This document shows positions 753 through 10,495 of a stretch of 10,495 nt of DNA, piece by piece. The notes beneath the pieces were generated by a model. It was not told the DNA's origin and did not search any database. It saw only the letters and a list, made by a program, of their open reading frames with translations. The position numbers were made by a program, and so were the translations under genes. Each line of letters opens with the position of its first letter. Position 1 is the first letter of the stretch. This DNA comes from an uncultured bacterium (GTDB taxonomy: Bacteria; CAIJMQ01), in the NCBI GenBank assembly GCA_903821905.1, contig CAIJMQ010000049.1, forward strand, positions 1 to 10,495, written 5' to 3'.

Positions 753-2159
753 ATGAGCGGAATTTTTGGAGTAATTTCTAAAAAGGGCGATTGCGCACAA
801 GACTTGTTTTACGGGACTGACTATCATTCCCATTTAGGTACACAATATGGCGGGATGGCTGTTCTTGGGGAAAAATTTACACGCCAAATACACGATTTAA
901 GCCAGACTCAATTTAAGTCAAAATTCTACGAAGATTACAAGAGAATGAAAGGGAATAAAGGAATAGGAGTTATAAGCGACCTTGATGAACAACCTATTTA
1001 TTTGAGATCGAAATTCGGACCTTTCTGTATAGTTACCAACGGACTTGTAGAAAATTCCGAAGAATTAATGAAAAAATTACTCGAAGAAGGCGGCTCTTTC
1101 AGTGAAGTAAGCAAGGGAGTTGTGAATGTTACTGAACTTGCAGCTAAGTTAATAAGTACAGGCAGTAATTTTATAGATGGCATCCAAAAGATGTTCGATG
1201 TAATAGATGGTTCATGTTCACTATTATTACTTAACAAAGACGGAATATATGCTGCAAGAGACAGGTTCGGATACACACCTCTTGTAATCGGTAAAAGCCA
1301 GGATGCCTGGGCGGTCACTACCGAAACAAGCGCTTTCCCTAATTTGGGATTTGAAGTAACAAAATACTTAAACCCCGGGGAAATAGTTCTAATCAACGAA
1401 AAGGGAATACAAGATAAAAGACATGGCGACAAGGTAAATCAAATCTGCTCTTTCTTGTGGATATATACCGGTTTCCCGGCATCAAGTTACGACGGAATAA
1501 ACGTAGAAATAACAAGAGAGAAATGCGGCAGAGCCTTAGCAAGAGGTGATAAGGACATAGAGGTAGATATAGTTGCGGGAGTCCCGGACTCGGGCACTTC
1601 GCACGCAATCGGATATGCCATGGAATCCGGCAAACCATATAGACGTCCGCTTGTTAAATATACTCCGGGATACGGGAGAAGTTATACTCCTCCTTCGCAA
1701 CAGACCCGGGATTTAATAGCAAAGATGAAACTCATTCCTATTAAAGAAATCATTAACGGAAACAGAATTGCAGTTTGCGAAGACTCTATAGTCAGAGGAA
1801 CACAGCTTAAGAATTTTACCGTAAAAAAACTTTGGGACGGCGGGGCTAAAGAAATTCATGTAAGACCTGCATGTCCACCGCTTATGTTCCCGTGCAGGTT
1901 CAATCTTTCTACACGCAGTATTAATGAACTTGCTGCCCGTAAAGCAATTAGAGCTCTTGAAGGTAAAGATATCGATGATGTTTCAAAATATATGGACCAT
2001 ACTTCTAAAGAGTATAAGAAGATGGTTGAATGGATAGCCAAAGATTTAGAAGTTACTACCTTGAGATATCAAACCGTAGACAATATGGTAAAAGCCATCG
2101 GGACTGCAAAAGAAAAACTCTGCCTCTATTGCTGGACAGGGAAATGCAGTCGAGATTAA
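753..2159 (+). CDS. Divergent PurF-like amidophosphoribosyltransferase with degenerate glutaminase site
   Basis: This 468-residue protein has the PurF layout: a class II (Ntn) glutaminase domain (about 1-225) and a phosphoribosyltransferase domain (about 230-468). Canonical PurF converts PRPP and glutamine to phosphoribosylamine, the first purine step. The PRPP loop is present (VCEDSIVRGTQ, 341-351), as is PDSG (278-281). C232, C381, C457 and C460 fall where Bacillus-type PurF carries its four Fe-S ligands. The glutaminase part is unusual. The protein starts MSGIFG, with Ser instead of the nucleophilic Cys. The segment that should read GHVRYS is GVISD (71-75), losing the glutamine-binding Arg. 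The usual SDTE is VTE (126-128), losing the Asp. The oxyanion NG (97-98) is kept. I infer an ammonia-dependent enzyme or one fed by a partner. It starts 64 bp after carB and ends 23 bp before glmS. From memory, similar MSGFFG proteins occur in Bacteroidales, so this may be a conserved subfamily. I withhold purF because the glutamine-dependent role is doubtful. Confidence 0.85.
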   Translation: MSGIFGVISKKGDCAQDLFYGTDYHSHLGTQYGGMAVLGEKFTRQIHDLSQTQFKSKFYEDYKRMKGNKGIGVISDLDEQPIYLRSKFGPFCIVTNGLVENSEELMKKLLEEGGSFSEVSKGVVNVTELAAKLISTGSNFIDGIQKMFDVIDGSCSLLLLNKDGIYAARDRFGYTPLVIGKSQDAWAVTTETSAFPNLGFEVTKYLNPGEIVLINEKGIQDKRHGDKVNQICSFLWIYTGFPASSYDGINVEITREKCGRALARGDKDIEVDIVAGVPDSGTSHAIGYAMESGKPYRRPLVKYTPGYGRSYTPPSQQTRDLIAKMKLIPIKEIINGNRIAVCEDSIVRGTQLKNFTVKKLWDGGAKEIHVRPACPPLMFPCRFNLSTRSINELAARKAIRALEGKDIDDVSKYMDHTSKEYKKMVEWIAKDLEVTTLRYQTVDNMVKAIGTAKEKLCLYCWTGKCSRD

Positions 2160-2182: not shown

Positions 2183-4060
2183 ATGTGCGGAATAGTAGGT
2201 TATGTCGGGAAGAAAAATGTTGTTCCCATTGTATTGGAAGGTCTCAAGAAACTCGAATATCGCGGTTATGACTCAGCCGGCATAGCTGTCATAGATAAAG
2301 GGAAACTTTCCGTTTTAAAGTGTAAGGGAAGAATTGCCGATTTAGAAAAATTAGTTAAAAAAAACCACCTTTCGGGGAATATAGGATTGGGACATACCCG
2401 TTGGGCTACACACGGAGACCCTTCAGATAGAAATGCTCATCCTCACACAGATGGTTCCGGTAAAATCGCAGTAGTTCATAACGGCATCATAGAGAATTAT
2501 GCATCTTTACGAAAGCTATTAATAGCCAAAGGCCATCAATTTAAATCCGATACTGATACAGAGATATTTGCCCATTTAATAGAAAGATTCTATAAGGGAG
2601 ATATTTTAAAAGCAGTCCAGAAAGCACTTACTTTGACCGAAGGAGCTTATGCTTTTGCTGTCATATGCAAAGATGAGCCGGATAAAATTGTAGCAGCCCG
2701 TTTGGGGAGCCCCTTAGTCATAGGCATAGGCAATAACGGAGAATATCTTATCGCTTCCGACCCCGTAGCCATAGTTAAACACACCCGTAAAGTAATATAT
2801 TTGGGCGACAAGGAAATCGCAGTACTTCAACCGTCAGGATACCGAATTACAAATATAGATAATGTAGAGATTGAAAAAGAAACTGAAGAGATAACATGGT
2901 CTTTGGATAAAATTACAAAAAATGGACTTCCTCATTATATGTTGAAGGAGATACTTGAACAGAGCCAGACCATATATGATGCTATACGCGGACGCATATT
3001 AAAAAAAGAAGCTAAAATTAAACTCGGCGGGTTGGAATCCCCGCTAAAATGGGTTACTGGGAAAGATAAACAAAAGACCGGGTTAAGTTGCCTCTTGAAT
3101 GCAAAAAGAATCATAATTGTTGCCTGTGGAACATCGTGGCATGCAGCTCTCATCGGAGAGTATATGTTCGAGAATATTATAGGCATACCCGTAGATGTAG
3201 AATATGCTTCGGAGGCAAGATACAGAAATTTTATAGTTGACGGAGATACCGTCGTTATAGGTATCAGTCAATCCGGCGAAACTCTGGACACGCTGGCTGC
3301 TCTCAGGGAAGCGAAAAAGAGAGGAGCAATTACATTAGGTCTTGTCAATGCTGTGGGTTCCACGATTGCACGGGAAACTCATGCCGGCGTATATCTACAC
3401 GCAGGGCCGGAAATAGGAGTGGCTTCTACTAAAGCATTTACCAGTCAGGTTTGTGTTCTGGCATTAATTACACTTCTAATAGGGCAGGAAAAACATCTAA
3501 TAACCAAGACCAAAACCAATCGTATTGTTCGCTCCCTTCTAAAAATTCCATCACAGATAAAAGAAATTTTGGGGCAAAGTGATGCGATTTTAAAGATAGC
3601 AAAACAATATGTTAACTTTAACAACTTCTTATATTTAGGAAGAGGATATAATTTCCCGATTGCTTTGGAGGGAGCGCTTAAATTGAAAGAAATTTCTTAT
3701 ATCCACGCTGAAGGATACCCAGCGGCAGAGATGAAGCACGGGCCCATAGCGCTCATTGATAAGAATATGCCTGTTGTATTCATTGCAACTGATACCGAAG
3801 ACCAGATATACAAGAAAATAATATCTAATATTGAAGAAGTAAGAGCCCGCAAAGGACAAGTCATTGCTATAGCCAGCAAAGGGAATAAGTCTATAGGGGA
3901 AATTGCGGACTCCGTAATAACGGTTCCCAAAACGATGGATTTTCTTACTCCTCTTTTAACGGTCATACCTCTTCAGCTCTTTGCTTATCATATAGCGGTT
4001 TTAAGAAAATGTGATGTAGACAAACCCCGTAATCTTGCCAAGAGTGTGACTGTTGAGTAG
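2183..4060 (+). CDS. glmS: Glutamine--fructose-6-phosphate aminotransferase (isomerizing)
   Basis: GlmS makes glucosamine-6-phosphate from fructose-6-phosphate and glutamine, the entry step to UDP-GlcNAc for peptidoglycan and LPS. The 625 residues contain an intact class II glutaminase: Cys2 in MCGIVG, Arg73 in HTRWATHG (71-78), HNG (99-101) and SDTDTE (122-127). Two SIS isomerase domains follow, with CGTSWHA (315-321), SQSGET (362-367), STKAFTSQ (415-422) and KEISYIHAEGYPAAEMKHGP (502-521). The C-terminus is the family's DKPRNLAKSVTVE, with K620 matching the lysine that forms the fructose Schiff base in E. coli. It is about 15 residues longer than the usual 608-610, and the extra length seems to lie in the interdomain linker (about 272-305). 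It follows the PurF-like gene by 23 bp with only a weak GTGAG upstream, so translational coupling is likely. No terminator is visible after its stop; a convergent gene ends 16 bp further on. Confidence 0.98.
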   Translation: MCGIVGYVGKKNVVPIVLEGLKKLEYRGYDSAGIAVIDKGKLSVLKCKGRIADLEKLVKKNHLSGNIGLGHTRWATHGDPSDRNAHPHTDGSGKIAVVHNGIIENYASLRKLLIAKGHQFKSDTDTEIFAHLIERFYKGDILKAVQKALTLTEGAYAFAVICKDEPDKIVAARLGSPLVIGIGNNGEYLIASDPVAIVKHTRKVIYLGDKEIAVLQPSGYRITNIDNVEIEKETEEITWSLDKITKNGLPHYMLKEILEQSQTIYDAIRGRILKKEAKIKLGGLESPLKWVTGKDKQKTGLSCLLNAKRIIIVACGTSWHAALIGEYMFENIIGIPVDVEYASEARYRNFIVDGDTVVIGISQSGETLDTLAALREAKKRGAITLGLVNAVGSTIARETHAGVYLHAGPEIGVASTKAFTSQVCVLALITLLIGQEKHLITKTKTNRIVRSLLKIPSQIKEILGQSDAILKIAKQYVNFNNFLYLGRGYNFPIALEGALKLKEISYIHAEGYPAAEMKHGPIALIDKNMPVVFIATDTEDQIYKKIISNIEEVRARKGQVIAIASKGNKSIGEIADSVITVPKTMDFLTPLLTVIPLQLFAYHIAVLRKCDVDKPRNLAKSVTVE

Positions 4061-4076
4061 GATAGTGCAGGAGACC

Positions 4077-4796
4077 TTATCTCGTTTCAATTCCTAACTT
4101 TTTATCTTTTACCTCGTAAGTAACAATGATCGACTCTGCAATTTCTTTCAGCGGCTTTCTTGTTTTCATCGAATATTTTCTCATCAAATTATAAGCAGCA
4201 TCTTCGTTCATTTTTTCTTCTTTCATGAGAATACCTTTTGCTTTTTCCACTTTCTTCCTCGTTTCAAGCTCTTCTTTCATGACCTGCGTCTCAAGCATGA
4301 GCCGCCAGTTATCGATTACAATCGCAGCTTGATTTGTTATCGACTCTAATATGTTGATTTCGGAAGGGGTAAACTCATGTTTCTTGGAGGTATAAAAATT
4401 CAAAACACCAATAACCGTGCCTTTTACTTTCAGCGGCAAAGAAAGAAGTGAACATAATCCTTCAGCTTTAGCAACATTCTGATTAATATACAGAGGGTCT
4501 TTTCTTACGTCCTGAGAAATAATAAGTTTATTTTCTTTGGCTACTTTGCCGGCTATGCCTTCGCCAAGTTTTATGGAGGGTTTCGTAAGATACCGCTTGC
4601 TGATTGATTGAGTTGCCTTGATAGATAGTTCTCCTTTTTCAGCATCAAGAAGCATAAGAGAACAGATTTTAAATCCCATTGCTTCCGCTGTAAGAGTTAC
4701 TATTAGTTTTAAAATATCTTCAGTATATTGTTCGGAAGTTATAGCATACGATATACGAGAAAGCGCTTCCAACTTTTTGGCTAATTCTTCTACCAT
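4077..4796 (-). CDS. GAF-ANTAR putative RNA-binding antiterminator
   Basis: This 239-residue soluble protein has a GAF sensory domain (about 25-165, with LGEGIAGKVAKENK and SLPLKVKGTVIGVLNFYT). A short helical linker leads to a C-terminal ANTAR domain (about 172-225), recognised by VEKAKGILMKEEKMNEDAAYNLMRKYS followed by KPLKEIAESI (split here: VEKAKGILM 183-191, AAYNLMRKYS 200-209, KPLKEIAESI 214-223). ANTAR proteins such as AmiR, NasR and EutV bind paired stem-loops in mRNA leaders and prevent termination, often for nitrogen-source genes; GAF domains usually bind a small ligand or report redox state. Neither ligand nor target can be told from sequence. No receiver or kinase domain is fused, so it looks like a one-component regulator. 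Its stop faces that of glmS 16 bp away, and it is divergent from nth. It has no Shine-Dalgarno; a -10 box ends 9 nt before the ATG. Confidence 0.93.
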   Translation of the reverse strand: MVEELAKKLEALSRISYAITSEQYTEDILKLIVTLTAEAMGFKICSLMLLDAEKGELSIKATQSISKRYLTKPSIKLGEGIAGKVAKENKLIISQDVRKDPLYINQNVAKAEGLCSLLSLPLKVKGTVIGVLNFYTSKKHEFTPSEINILESITNQAAIVIDNWRLMLETQVMKEELETRKKVEKAKGILMKEEKMNEDAAYNLMRKYSMKTRKPLKEIAESIIVTYEVKDKKLGIETR

Positions 4797-4882: not shown

Positions 4883-5536
4883 ATGACAGTAACTAAAAAA
4901 TCAGACCGCGTAGAAGAAATAATTGAAATCCTAAGAAAGAACTATCCCTACCTCAAAACTGCTTTAAAATATAATTCACCTTTTGAGCTTTTAGTCGCCA
5001 CTATTCTTTCTGCCCAGTGTACCGACAAAAGAGTGAACAAGCTGACACCTGCGCTTTTTGCCAAATATCCGTCTATTAAGGATTTCGCGAATGTAAAACC
5101 AGAGGAATTAGAGAAAGATATCTATTCAACGGGTTTTTATAAGAATAAAACAAAAAGTATTATTGGAACCGCCAAAAAGTTACTGGAGGATTTCAATGGG
5201 GAAGTCCCGGATAGTATGGAAAAGTTAATAACCTTACCGGGAGTAGCAAGAAAAACAGCAAATGTTGTACTGTCGTCTGCTTTTAAAAAAGTAGAAGGAA
5301 TAACAGTGGATGTGCACGTAAAAAGAATTGCTGAAAGATTGAGATTAAGCAAAGAGAAAGATGCAGAGAAAGTAGAAAAAGACCTTATGCGTATAATACC
5401 CTGGGACGAGTGGATGGATATAAGCTATCTTTTTATAGACCACGGAAGAGCAATTTGCAATGCAAGAAAACCTTTGTGTCCCAAGTGTCCAATAAAACAT
5501 CTTTGCCCTTCAATGCAGAAATTTTATCCTAATTAG
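4883..5536 (+). CDS. nth: Endonuclease III (DNA glycosylase/AP lyase)
   Basis: Nth removes oxidised pyrimidines from DNA and nicks the abasic site, starting base excision repair. At 217 residues it is of usual length. The helix-hairpin-helix LPGVARKTANVV (118-129) contains the catalytic lysine K124. The catalytic aspartate is D143 in TVDVHVKRIAERL. The C-terminal 4Fe-4S ligands C192, C199, C202 and C208 have exactly the family spacing C-X6-C-X2-C-X5-C. The early segment LLVATILSAQCTDKRVN (37-52) is also typical. No active-site residue appears missing. The ATG at 4883 has no Shine-Dalgarno and lies just downstream of a good promoter. The AddB-like gene follows after 12 bp, making a small DNA-repair operon. 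Confidence 0.98.
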   Translation: MTVTKKSDRVEEIIEILRKNYPYLKTALKYNSPFELLVATILSAQCTDKRVNKLTPALFAKYPSIKDFANVKPEELEKDIYSTGFYKNKTKSIIGTAKKLLEDFNGEVPDSMEKLITLPGVARKTANVVLSSAFKKVEGITVDVHVKRIAERLRLSKEKDAEKVEKDLMRIIPWDEWMDISYLFIDHGRAICNARKPLCPKCPIKHLCPSMQKFYPN

Positions 5537-5548
5537 ATAACCCTCCTC

Positions 5549-8323
5549 ATGAAAATACGAACTATCCCGTTCAATATGCCTTTTCTTCCTGTACTGGCAA
5601 AATATATAGCACAAAAACATAAAACAATTTCACCGGATTTCAGTTCTGTTCTTATTGTTTTCCCATCCGAGAGAAATAAGATGTATTTTAGGGAATACCT
5701 GCTAAAGGAAACAGGAAAAGATGGAATCATACCACCATATCTTCTTACCATTGAGCAGCTTTATGGGCATGTTTTTGAAGAAACAGGAGGGATAAAATCG
5801 GTTTTATCTGAAGAGATAGAACGTAATGTATTACTTAAAGAAGCGGTTGAAGAAATTAAGGTAAAAAATTGGGAAGAGTTGTCATTCATTAAATTTATAT
5901 CTATAGGTAAGAAACTTTTAGGGTTTTTTGATGAACTGACAAGCTGGGGCATTACCATAGAAGAGATTGAAAATATGAAGGACAAGCTGCATTTCCCGTC
6001 ACAGTATATAGACGAGGAATTACCGATTTTGAAAAAGATTCAAACAAGATACAAAATAAATCTTAATAATAAAAACCTTGAAGATAAAGTCTCTTCCTAT
6101 CTTTCAGCAGCAAAAAATTTCAAGCCCAAACATCTAAAAGATTTCGAATTTATTTATCTTGCCGGCTTTCTTGCTTTTACGTCTACCGACGCATTTTTCT
6201 TAAAGAAAATTCTAAAGAATTTGCCATCCGAACTTATACTTCACTCTGATAAAAATAAACTAGAAGATAGTTCCTTAGATAATGTCTTCTATCACCATAA
6301 CAAGATGCTTAATATGCTACAAACCAATACGAAAAACATTAAGATTCTTTCCCTGCCAAATTTAAAAAATAAAGTTATAACGCGGGTTTATGTCCAAAAA
6401 TGCAAAAATATGCTTGATGAAATCTCTTTTATTATAGACACTCTTTATACTGTTACGCCTAAATATCAGCTTAACCGTATCGGTGTAATGCTCCCTGAAG
6501 AATCTTTCTATCTACCATTAACAGATGCATTAGAAAAGTTTGATATCCCTTACAACCTTTCAATGGGCATACCCTTTAAACATTCATCTTTATATTCGTT
6601 CTTAAGAAGTTCTTATGAGTTTATAGATTCAGACTTTAAAGCAACTCAATTCCTAATATTATTACAAAATCCGATAATCAAAGGTATCGTTAAAGACGGG
6701 ATTTCTTTCAGTGAACTAATATATAAACTCGACAGTAAAATCAGGAAGGAAAACTTTTCTTTTATTAACCCACAAACCGGGGATTCCCAGTCACAGCTAC
6801 TCATGGACTATATTTTCAAGATAATAAATAAACTAAATCAAAATCGTACTTTCAGTGAATATGTAAAAAATGTACGTGAAATTATTCAGGAATTAACTGA
6901 AACCAATGAGATATTTTTTAAACAAAACGCTAACATTTTAGTTGGCTTAATGGATAAACTCATTACTATAGAAAACTCTTATGTACCGGACGAATTCTGC
7001 CCTAAAGGTAAAGATAAACTGAGATTTTTAATAAGTACACTTGAAGGAATAAGCTTCCCAACTTCGGGAGATTTCTTGAATGGTGTGCAGGTTATAGGTA
7101 TTTTGGAAGCCAGGAATATTGATTTTGATTGCATCATAATCCCGTCCTGCAACGAAGGAATCCTACCCCAAAAAAGCGAAAAAGACCTTTTTCTTCCAGC
7201 CAATTTAAGAAAAGAAATGAACTTGCCATATTATAAAGAGAGGGAAGCCCTTTACTCTTATTATTTCCACCAATTAATCACAGGTAAAAAGGAAGTATAT
7301 CTTTCCTACAAGAGTGAAGAAAATACGGAATTAGGCTTAAGGAGTAGATGGATAGAAAAACTTGTTGAAAATGTAAATAGAAATTTTGCCGTTATAGAAA
7401 AAACCGGGATAGACTTTGCAAATATTTTTAGTACAGGTAAAGGCAAAAGAGATAAAAAACCTTCTGCAGTAGAAAAAGACAATAAAACCTTGAACCTATT
7501 GAAATCCTTTACTTTTTCTCCGTCCATCTTAAAAACATATAAACAGTGTCCTTATAAGTTTTATCTTTTGTATATCCTCAAACTGAAAGAGCCAAAAACT
7601 ATAAAAGAAGAATATGATGCCTCTATGTGGGGAACTATTTTCCATCATGCATTTGCACGATTATACAATGAAATATATCCCGAAGGTTACGCGGAAAACA
7701 TAAAAAAACAGGTAATAGAAAACCTGATAAAAATAGGGGAAGAAGAGTTTAAAAAAATCTATCCTCAGCCAAAAGCTTCCCTTTCTTTTGAGTGGGAACT
7801 AAACCAGAAAAAGCTTGTAAATTTAATAGACCGTGAAATCATGCATTTTAAAGATGGTTTTATGCCTGTCAACATGGAGAAAAAACTTACACCCTACGTT
7901 ATAGATATCGATAATAATATCGAAGTAAAGATTGGCGGGATACCGGATAGAATAGACACGAAAGATGAGAAATTTTATATTATAGATTACAAGATAGGTA
8001 AAAAACCGTCCACAAAAACATACAGAATTGGTAATGACTTCACCGAATTTCAACTGCCTTTATATGGACTAATCTTCACAAAAGGCAAAATAGATTTAAT
8101 CGGAGGGCTTATTTATTATCATTTAGATGAAAACCGCCAAAATTTTCTTACACTGGATATATTGGAAAAAGAGGGAAAAGACTATATCAAAAAATTTGAA
8201 GAGGGAATACTATTCCCAACTCTTAAAGATATATTTAACAAAAATATCCTTTTCAAATTAACTGAAAACTTTGATACTTGCCAGAGATGCATTTTTATAG
8301 AACACTGCAGAAGAAGGGTTTGA
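5549..8323 (+). CDS. AddB-like PD-(D/E)XK nuclease, helicase-like N-terminal region without P-loop
   Basis: This 924-residue protein resembles the AddB/RexB side of double-strand-break repair exonucleases. The C-terminal nuclease has the RecB-type motifs: GTIFHHAF with H700 (695-702), GGIPDRID with D800 (796-803), IIDYKIGKK with D813 and K815 (811-819), and QLPLYG (835-840). Cysteines C667 (KQCPYKFY) and C911, C914, C920 (C-X2-C-X5-C) match the AddB/Cas4 Fe-S staple. The middle carries a UvrD-like helicase motif, VQVIGILEARNIDFDCIIIP then NEGILP (513-540). At the N-terminus I see no Walker A (GxxxxGKS/T); in its place is IVFPSERNKMYFREYL (36-51), so ATP-driven unwinding by this subunit is unlikely. 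No AddA-type helicase is in the window. The start is 12 bp after nth; the gap (ending CCCTCCTC) holds no Shine-Dalgarno, so coupling with nth is probable. I am sure of the nuclease family, less sure that it works as AddB. Confidence 0.88.
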   Translation: MKIRTIPFNMPFLPVLAKYIAQKHKTISPDFSSVLIVFPSERNKMYFREYLLKETGKDGIIPPYLLTIEQLYGHVFEETGGIKSVLSEEIERNVLLKEAVEEIKVKNWEELSFIKFISIGKKLLGFFDELTSWGITIEEIENMKDKLHFPSQYIDEELPILKKIQTRYKINLNNKNLEDKVSSYLSAAKNFKPKHLKDFEFIYLAGFLAFTSTDAFFLKKILKNLPSELILHSDKNKLEDSSLDNVFYHHNKMLNMLQTNTKNIKILSLPNLKNKVITRVYVQKCKNMLDEISFIIDTLYTVTPKYQLNRIGVMLPEESFYLPLTDALEKFDIPYNLSMGIPFKHSSLYSFLRSSYEFIDSDFKATQFLILLQNPIIKGIVKDGISFSELIYKLDSKIRKENFSFINPQTGDSQSQLLMDYIFKIINKLNQNRTFSEYVKNVREIIQELTETNEIFFKQNANILVGLMDKLITIENSYVPDEFCPKGKDKLRFLISTLEGISFPTSGDFLNGVQVIGILEARNIDFDCIIIPSCNEGILPQKSEKDLFLPANLRKEMNLPYYKEREALYSYYFHQLITGKKEVYLSYKSEENTELGLRSRWIEKLVENVNRNFAVIEKTGIDFANIFSTGKGKRDKKPSAVEKDNKTLNLLKSFTFSPSILKTYKQCPYKFYLLYILKLKEPKTIKEEYDASMWGTIFHHAFARLYNEIYPEGYAENIKKQVIENLIKIGEEEFKKIYPQPKASLSFEWELNQKKLVNLIDREIMHFKDGFMPVNMEKKLTPYVIDIDNNIEVKIGGIPDRIDTKDEKFYIIDYKIGKKPSTKTYRIGNDFTEFQLPLYGLIFTKGKIDLIGGLIYYHLDENRQNFLTLDILEKEGKDYIKKFEEGILFPTLKDIFNKNILFKLTENFDTCQRCIFIEHCRRRV

Positions 8324-9695: not shown

Positions 9696-10495
9696 TTAGT
9701 AAGATGGACATGCTTGGCCAGCAATATGTTCCGTAGCAGAACATCCCCAAGTGCCCCTCTGAACCTTCTTTAAATCCAGATTGCCAGGCGAAGAAACACC
9801 CCAAACAAGCTGATTTGCGGGGGCAACAGTGCGTGAGTCTACCCATTTCCAATATTCGGCATGCCCGTCTACAAAAGAGAAGTTTGCACCATTACCGTGC
9901 CTCAAAGGAGGAGGAGTATGCCAAATTTCCGCATCATACCTAACACCAAAAGCACCAAGATATAGAAGTCCATTATCAACAAAAACAAGTCTTCTAGTTG
10001 TATCGCCGGTAAGTTGACTCATATTACTTATTTTTGTACAGCCTGTACCATTACAGGGCCAAAGCGAACCCTGCAAAACTGAAGCATCCATAGAAACAGC
10101 TATGTTATATGTTACTTTAGACCATTTCTCACCATTTGAACATCTATACATCGACCTCTCATTACTCATATATGGCCAAAATTGACCAGTCGTAATACAG
10201 GTTTCCCATTCTGCGGGGGTGCTAGAAGCAGAAGGAGCAGTAGCAACATTGGAATTAATCCAATATACCCAAGTCGGATGGTAGTATCCTAAATCAGCAC
10301 CTGGGAGAAAACCCCTGTTATCATCTGTATACCAAAGCCATGTTAATTGCAGCTGTTTAAGATTACCAAGACAAGTTGCACGTTTGGCAGATTCTCGAGC
10401 ATGATTTAACGAGGGAAGTAATACTGCAGCCAATATTCCTATAATAGCGACCACCACTAAAAGTTCTATCAGGGTAAAACCTTGATGTTTATTCA
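9696..10495 (-). CDS. Prepilin-like protein with H-X9-DG motif (lacks first base of start codon)
   Basis: The frame extends upstream of the internal GTG at 10457 to the window edge and reads TG AAT AAA CAT CAA GGT. If the next base outside is A, the protein is 266 residues starting MNKHQG. The N-terminus is a class III (type IV prepilin) signal: cleavage after Gly6, then [20 protein letters not shown] with Glu at mature position 5, followed by [20 protein letters not shown]. The C-terminal part contains [18 protein letters not shown], an exact H-X9-DG (H200, D210, G211). This pairing defines the prepilin-type processing-associated H-X9-DG class, numerous in Lentisphaerae and Planctomycetes and of unknown function. 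The globular part is rich in Trp, Tyr and Asn and has several Cys, consistent with an exported surface protein. No pilus assembly gene is nearby. An intrinsic terminator follows. Confidence 0.93.

Follow-up and report, generated by a model that had tools for sequence, protein, structure and literature searches.

The window, i.e., the whole stretch of DNA analyzed here (10,495 nucleotides), contains a gene encoding a full-length homologue of PurF, located between the C-terminal part of carB and a canonical glmS gene. We use the name PURF2 for the deep, monophyletic family that includes this protein. The features of the window are:

2-688, + strand: carB, C-terminal part, carbamoyl-phosphate synthase large subunit, upstream of PURF2
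743-746, + strand: GGAG ribosome-binding site of PURF2, read from the sequence
753-2159, + strand: PURF2, PurF paralog of 468 amino acids with an inactivated glutaminase domain (ORF translation, profile search, alignment, tree, fold model)
756-758, + strand: codon 2 of PURF2, AGC (Ser), replacing the Cys nucleophile
966-980, + strand: GVISD (residues 72-76), at the place of the canonical GHVRY(S/A)T (alignment)
1446-1448, + strand: Cys232, Fe-S ligand position (B. subtilis C236), in 118 of 119 relatives (alignment)
1773-1805, + strand: PRPP loop VCEDSIVRGTQ, residues 341-351 (alignment)
1893-1895, + strand: Cys381, Fe-S ligand position (B. subtilis C382), in 118 of 119 relatives (alignment)
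2121-2132, + strand: Cys457 and Cys460, Fe-S ligand positions (B. subtilis C437 and C440), in 119 of 119 and 118 of 119 relatives (alignment)
2183-4060, + strand: glmS, canonical glutamine-fructose-6-phosphate transaminase (MCG, intact), 23 bp 3′ of PURF2
4077-4796, - strand: GAF-ANTAR regulator, convergent with glmS
4883-5536: endonuclease-III-like gene, adjoining the AddB-like gene
5549-8323, + strand: AddB-like DNA repair protein, below the cut-off of the curated model
9696-10493, - strand: prepilin-like protein bearing an N-terminal methylation motif, truncated at the contig end

An Rfam search of the window gave no match, and a tRNA search found none. ANTAR proteins frequently exert antitermination control of nitrogen genes, and a related ANTAR gene is present two genes 3′ of PURF2 in one other genome (G223, locus L199).

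A PurF homologue with an altered glutaminase half

The PURF2 protein of the window starts at an ATG at position 753 and begins MSGIFG. An in-frame TAA is present at 738-740, 12 bases upstream, and therefore no earlier start can add an N-terminal Cys, which rules out a longer N-terminus bearing this residue. Against the NCBIfam purF model TIGR01134 the protein scores 209.3 bits and does not reach the cut-off of 350, and every match to it among the curated NCBIfam models is below the cut-off. The closest solved structures by sequence are those of B. subtilis PurF (1AO0/1GPH, E 3e-57). A predicted structure of the protein (pLDDT 86.2, pTM 0.83) matches 1AO0 by Foldseek with E 3e-39 and TM 0.83, showing the two-domain fold of PurF over the whole chain, and VIA gives Z 41 to 6LBP and Z 40.1 to 1AO0 (418 residues, rmsd 2.2).

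The first-pass annotation of this gene had described a glutaminase site that has lost three residues, next to a second site that is kept. Comparison with 1AO0/1GPH and an alignment of 185 rows confirmed that Ser replaces Cys at codon 2 and that the Asp of SDTE is missing. The Arg of GHVRYS is also gone, as claimed, but by a deletion of four residues (RYxT) in the alignment and not by substitution, and the GVISD that had been placed at residues 71-75 occupies residues 72-76 when Met is counted as residue 1. The PRPP loop at residues 341-351 and Cys 232, 381, 457, and 460 are kept as described. Beyond this earlier reading, Arg26 of QHRGQ is also missing (Leu), and the oxyanion Asn-Gly (residues 96-97) is retained in the window protein, the Asn being missing in most relatives.

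The PURF2 family, its residues, and its phylogeny

A scan of one genome per species, using patterns that include the PRPP loop, confirmed at least 589 relatives. Read from the best 80 of these, with MAG labels as deposited, the taxa are Omnitrophota, Planctomycetota, Aminicenantes, Acidobacteriota, Desulfobacterota/Syntrophaceae, Spirochaetota, Lentisphaerota, Kiritimatiellae, Gemmatimonadota, Chloroflexota, Myxococcota, Loki- and Heimdallarchaeota, and Thermoplasmata. The family is also present in Bacteroidota, Clostridia, and Asgard archaea, and named strains with PURF2 are Bacteroides finegoldii, Parabacteroides distasonis, Phocaeicola massiliensis, and Peptoclostridium acidaminophilum DSM 3953 (48-49% identity). 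Members in Bacteroidales had been anticipated as MSGFFG proteins; Bacteroidales members do exist, and the two that we read begin MGGFFG and not MSGFFG. Matches in 60 related genomes (mostly other bacteria) fall into two classes, i.e., PURF2, with 49-90% identity and at least 472 bits, and canonical PurF, with at most 39% identity and at most 214 bits, short fragments excepted. No PURF2 relatives were found in the viral contigs searched.

Residues were tabulated for 119 non-redundant PURF2 proteins and 60 canonical PurF proteins in the 185-row alignment, with B. subtilis numbering taken from the reference row. At the nucleophile position, 59 of the 60 canonical proteins contain Cys (one is gapped), and none of the PURF2 proteins does, with Ser in 66, Gly in 51, and Asp and Val in one each. 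Since Gly occupies this position in 51 of 119, Ser as an Ntn nucleophile across the family, i.e., a Ser-dependent glutaminase, is ruled out. All 119 PURF2 proteins have Arg26 replaced by Leu, Met, or Phe, the RYxT of GHVRYxT deleted, and the glutamine-binding Asp127 missing, and only 24, the window protein included, contain the oxyanion Asn. A pattern of loss found in 119 of 119 relatives is therefore due neither to sequencing error nor to chance.

The PRPP loop D346-S-I-(V)-R350-G-T352 is invariant in all 119 proteins (with one Val to Ile), as are P-D-S-G of the PPi loop and Arg311 and Lys328 of the mobile loop. The putative Fe-S cysteines at C236, C382, C437, and C440 (Bacillus type) are present in 118-119 of the 119, and at position 345, 95 proteins have Glu and 24 have Asp. 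Thr353 of the phosphate loop is Gln in every PURF2 protein (Gln351 of the window protein), a signature of the family, and Arg307-Tyr308 of the mobile loop is changed throughout; by motif, this matches the E. coli loop around Tyr329, which couples both sites. With residues of the glutamine site and mobile loop lost and those of the transferase kept, the glutamine site, and likely its coupling, is therefore gone and the transferase left. Near-invariant residues of the PURF2 glutaminase half are C14, D23-Y24-H25, E118, G143, and N197, and the family-specific invariant residues of this half and the PRPP site are the same residues except G143, together with R298, Y303, and Q351. Mean pairwise identity in PURF2 is 54% for the glutaminase half and 63% for the transferase half, compared to 43% and 53% in the canonical set; judged by its sequence, the inactivated half is under conservation and not decaying. 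The residue table, the tree, and these half identities strongly support the earlier proposal of a conserved subfamily that combines a dead glutaminase with a preserved second site.

In the tree (a quick tree, without bootstrap), PURF2 forms one clade with an SH-aLRT of 100, and canonical PurF and four archaeal PurF′-type proteins are placed on the other side, also with an SH-aLRT of 100. The comparison of MSG-type with MCG-type proteins, which the first-pass annotation had proposed, thus sets PURF2 apart from canonical PurF, and the tree rules out that PURF2 is in the same clade as archaeal PurF′. Because the two are on separate sides, glutaminase residues have been lost in PurF paralogs at least two times. 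The PurF′-type rows (L149, L150, L157, and L160) come from archaeal purL-purF-purF′ loci, and Cys1 is still present in three of the four although the Arg73 segment is lost, so that loss of the Cys may not come first. Sister to PURF2 stands one protein alone (L178; G111 C43:32665-34002). It keeps Cys1, lacks the Arg73 segment, the oxyanion Asn, and Asp127 (His in its place), and already contains the phosphate-loop Gln; it is a possible evolutionary intermediate.

Gene neighborhoods and canonical PurF in PURF2 genomes

The carB gene is a conserved neighbor of PURF2, both in the window's own family and in other phyla. At 136 PURF2 loci, a set that includes duplicate fetches of one genome, the close neighbors recognized most often are carB (20), canonical purF (14), a DUF1846 gene (9, named from reading the translation), and glmS (6), with purL, purM, purB, greA, purQ, and guaA recognized more rarely; many or most immediate same-strand neighbors belong to no recognized or shared set. 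One Omnitrophota group contains a compact operon, purB-purL-LOG-purQ-PURF2-purF-purM-purD, with small variations (L191-L194, L196-L198), and Omnitrophota versions of the operon without purF at that spot are present at L186-L190 and L201. In Lokiarchaeia, PURF2 adjoins canonical PurF in approximately 20 genomes, and 9 of the 41 Omnitrophota holding both genes have them within approximately 3 kb (chance probability ~4e-12, kinship ignored). In Peptoclostridium and three genera of Bacteroidales, pepT comes directly after PURF2 (L210-L213), a pairing found across phyla, and at L062 PURF2 is flanked by a glutamate-dehydrogenase-like gene and a pyrG-like gene. The genes linked to PURF2 belong to purine synthesis and other amidation routes and, where the host uses peptides, to ammonia-releasing catabolism. 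Two of the records with pepT (L210 and L211), labelled as plasmids of Bacteroides finegoldii and Parabacteroides distasonis, carry eno together with ribosomal protein genes, and appear to be parts of a chromosome.

The question of whether the window's genome also encodes a canonical PurF, raised with the first-pass annotation, is answered by a purF gene on contig C33, apart from PURF2 (544 bits, MCG, GHVRYST), with hisF, hisH, and pyrG as neighbors (names from reading the translations); purM is also present in this genome. Canonical PurF was likewise found in 38 of 50 PURF2 genomes, and since most hosts keep it, PURF2 is not generally a replacement for PurF. The remaining 12 contain no PurF above the TIGR01134 cut-off, and purM is present in 11 of these. 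One of these genomes, that of Oligosphaera ethanolica, contains a divergent 626-aa PurF-like ORF (G103 C1:1045946-1047052) whose TIGR01134 score of 134.6 bits falls far short of the cut-off, and its presence rules out this species as a PurF-less isolate.

Among Omnitrophota with a completeness of at least 92%, 9 of 50 PURF2 genomes show no PurF, and 7 of these 9 contain purM. Two genomes (G176 and G148) have a contiguous purine operon with PURF2 in the place of PurF, and PurF was not found elsewhere in either genome. An archaeal genome (G082) contains only PURF2, plus purM, in a class where all 16 of the PURF2-free genomes contain PurF. PurF is missing and purM held in 7 of 48 PURF2-positive genomes and 4 of 66 PURF2-negative genomes (Fisher p 0.20), i.e., PURF2 genomes are not significantly more often without PurF than others. 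One genome missing both PurF and purM (G167) was considered as a purine auxotroph, and this was rejected, as purN, purB, and purL are present; its purL runs into an apparently N-filled stretch (a 24,675-aa open frame), making the missing PurF an assembly gap. PurF and purM are both missing from a further genome (G173), which may be incomplete. The PURF2 genomes that synthesize purines and have no PurF suggest replacement, but the missing PurF in those few genomes may be due to MAG gaps.

Candidate functions of PURF2

We hold with moderate confidence that PURF2 is an ammonia-fed phosphoribosylamine synthase, an enzyme that would, we infer, be catalytic, use PRPP with free ammonia as the donor instead of glutamine, and be able to replace PurF. 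On this proposal, the glutamine half has been dismantled (nucleophile, Arg26, the Arg73/Tyr74 segment, Asp127, and mostly the oxyanion Asn) and would persist in a structural role, as a conserved domain. The PRPP half is retained, with its PRPP loop, PPi loop PDSG, mobile-loop Arg and Lys, and Fe-S cysteines, and PURF2 would serve beside PurF as an ammonia-fed entry to de novo purine synthesis, possibly taking the place of PurF in some lineages. In E. coli PurF, changing Cys1 to Ala or Ser abolishes glutamine use, and ammonia still serves (PMC3261824); PurF enzymes can also draw on external NH3 to form phosphoribosylamine (PMC12017579). PURF2 resembles an ancient, naturally occurring counterpart of the Cys1 mutant in which the loss is more complete, and we therefore favor the ammonia-fed synthase. 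Moreover, the same altered protein is found across many bacterial and some archaeal phyla, often beside purine genes, which makes an ammonia-fed first purine intermediate probable.

The losses and retentions of residues, the single clade, and the linkage to purine operons are what we observe, and several of these observations argue for the synthase, i.e., glutaminase residues lost and transferase residues invariant in a protein with the PurF fold over its whole chain, placement in purine operons, PURF2 in the place of PurF in G176 and G148 and standing alone in G082, and neighbors that release ammonia or amino acids (the glutamate-dehydrogenase-like gene and pepT). Against it, PurF is kept in 38 of 50 hosts, the excess of PurF-less genomes is not significant, and MAG assemblies have gaps; the loop that binds the 5-phosphate carries Gln instead of Thr353 in every member; and the dead half has invariant residues of its own, for which a mere ammonia-fed enzyme has no obvious need. 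The first-pass annotation had offered an ammonia-fed synthase, a different PRPP amidation, or a sensor, and among these the purine-operon context favors the synthase or else a partner of PurF.

Such a partner is the main alternative, a tentative one less probable than the synthase, in which PURF2 is a regulatory pseudoenzyme that forms mixed oligomers with PurF, or uses its intact PRPP site to sense PRPP and nucleotides, and acts on the purine-pyrimidine balance (PurF, CarB). The retention of canonical PurF in most hosts, the adjacency to PurF in about 20 Lokiarchaeia and 9 of 41 Omnitrophota, carB as the commonest recognized neighbor, and the Thr to Gln change of the phosphate loop in all PURF2 proteins are in line with this, and the new invariant residues of the dead half fit a binding or contact role. 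However, the invariant catalytic residues of the transferase, mobile-loop Arg and Lys included, go beyond the need of a pure sensor, PURF2 does not adjoin purF in most genomes, and PurF was not found in several purine-synthesizing genomes that contain PURF2. It is unlikely that PURF2 carries out a different PRPP-dependent reaction in a rebuilt pocket, with another amine donor, ammonia from a partner glutaminase (PurQ, CarA), or another acceptor. Invariant residues specific to the family, both in the former glutaminase half and at the PRPP site, point in this direction, as do the neighbors carB, glmS, guaA, pyrG, and purQ, which are all amidation systems, but placement in purine operons indicates the ordinary product, no other pathway occurs consistently among the neighbors, and no partner gene is present at all loci. 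We give a similarly low probability to the idea that the old glutaminase pocket was rebuilt for another ligand or nitrogen donor, giving new PRPP chemistry or an input of nitrogen status in a protein that may also be the sole entry to purines. An ordinary PurF that has been misread, whether it is a degenerate copy, has a misplaced start codon, or is a glutaminase with a serine nucleophile, would agree with the automated annotation as amidophosphoribosyltransferase and with the PurF fold, and is highly improbable in view of the in-frame stop just 5′ of the start, the Gly at the nucleophile position in 51 of 119 proteins, and the occurrence in many phyla of a glutaminase half more conserved (54% against 43%) than that of the canonical set.

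PURF2 shares with canonical PurF (B. subtilis 1AO0/1GPH, E. coli 1ECB; EC 2.4.2.14) the whole-chain fold, the PRPP and PPi loops, the mobile-loop Arg and Lys, the four Fe-S cysteine positions, and placement in purine operons. It differs in having no Cys nucleophile, Arg26, Arg73/Tyr74 segment, or Asp127, in the change of Thr353 to Gln, in the loss of mobile-loop Arg307-Tyr308, in its separate clade, and in its score of 209 bits against a cut-off of 350. A PurF paralog often without the Cys nucleophile is known from Crenarchaeota as PurF′, located near purF and other purine genes, and the 2011 study suggested ammonia-dependent aminotransfer for it and asked for this to be tested (Brown et al. 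2011; PMC3261824). PURF2 is likewise without the Cys nucleophile, and adjacency to purF, a PurF′ trait, is found for PURF2 in Lokiarchaeia and some Omnitrophota but not in the window, where purF is on C33. The sampled PurF′-type loci group with canonical PurF and not with PURF2, and the four proteins keep Arg26 and Thr353 in all cases and Cys1 in three. PURF2 forms a clade of its own, which is spread far more widely and whose alterations go deeper. By analogy only, the NAD synthetase family has some members that use ammonia directly and others that use glutamine (PMC3376133); this is an unrelated protein, and in PURF2 the glutaminase domain is inactivated but still present. A literature search, with subscription journals mostly outside its reach, found no study of the PURF2 family.

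If PURF2 is an ammonia-fed synthase, lineages of many phyla, gut Bacteroidales among them, could carry out the committed first step of purine synthesis without glutamine. Hundreds of proteins often automatically labelled amidophosphoribosyltransferase would then be misdescribed, and metabolic models would be wrong in counting PURF2 as a glutamine-using PurF. With two lineages, PURF2 and archaeal PurF′, losing glutaminase residues and yet found beside purF, the role of a glutaminase-dead PurF is now testable.
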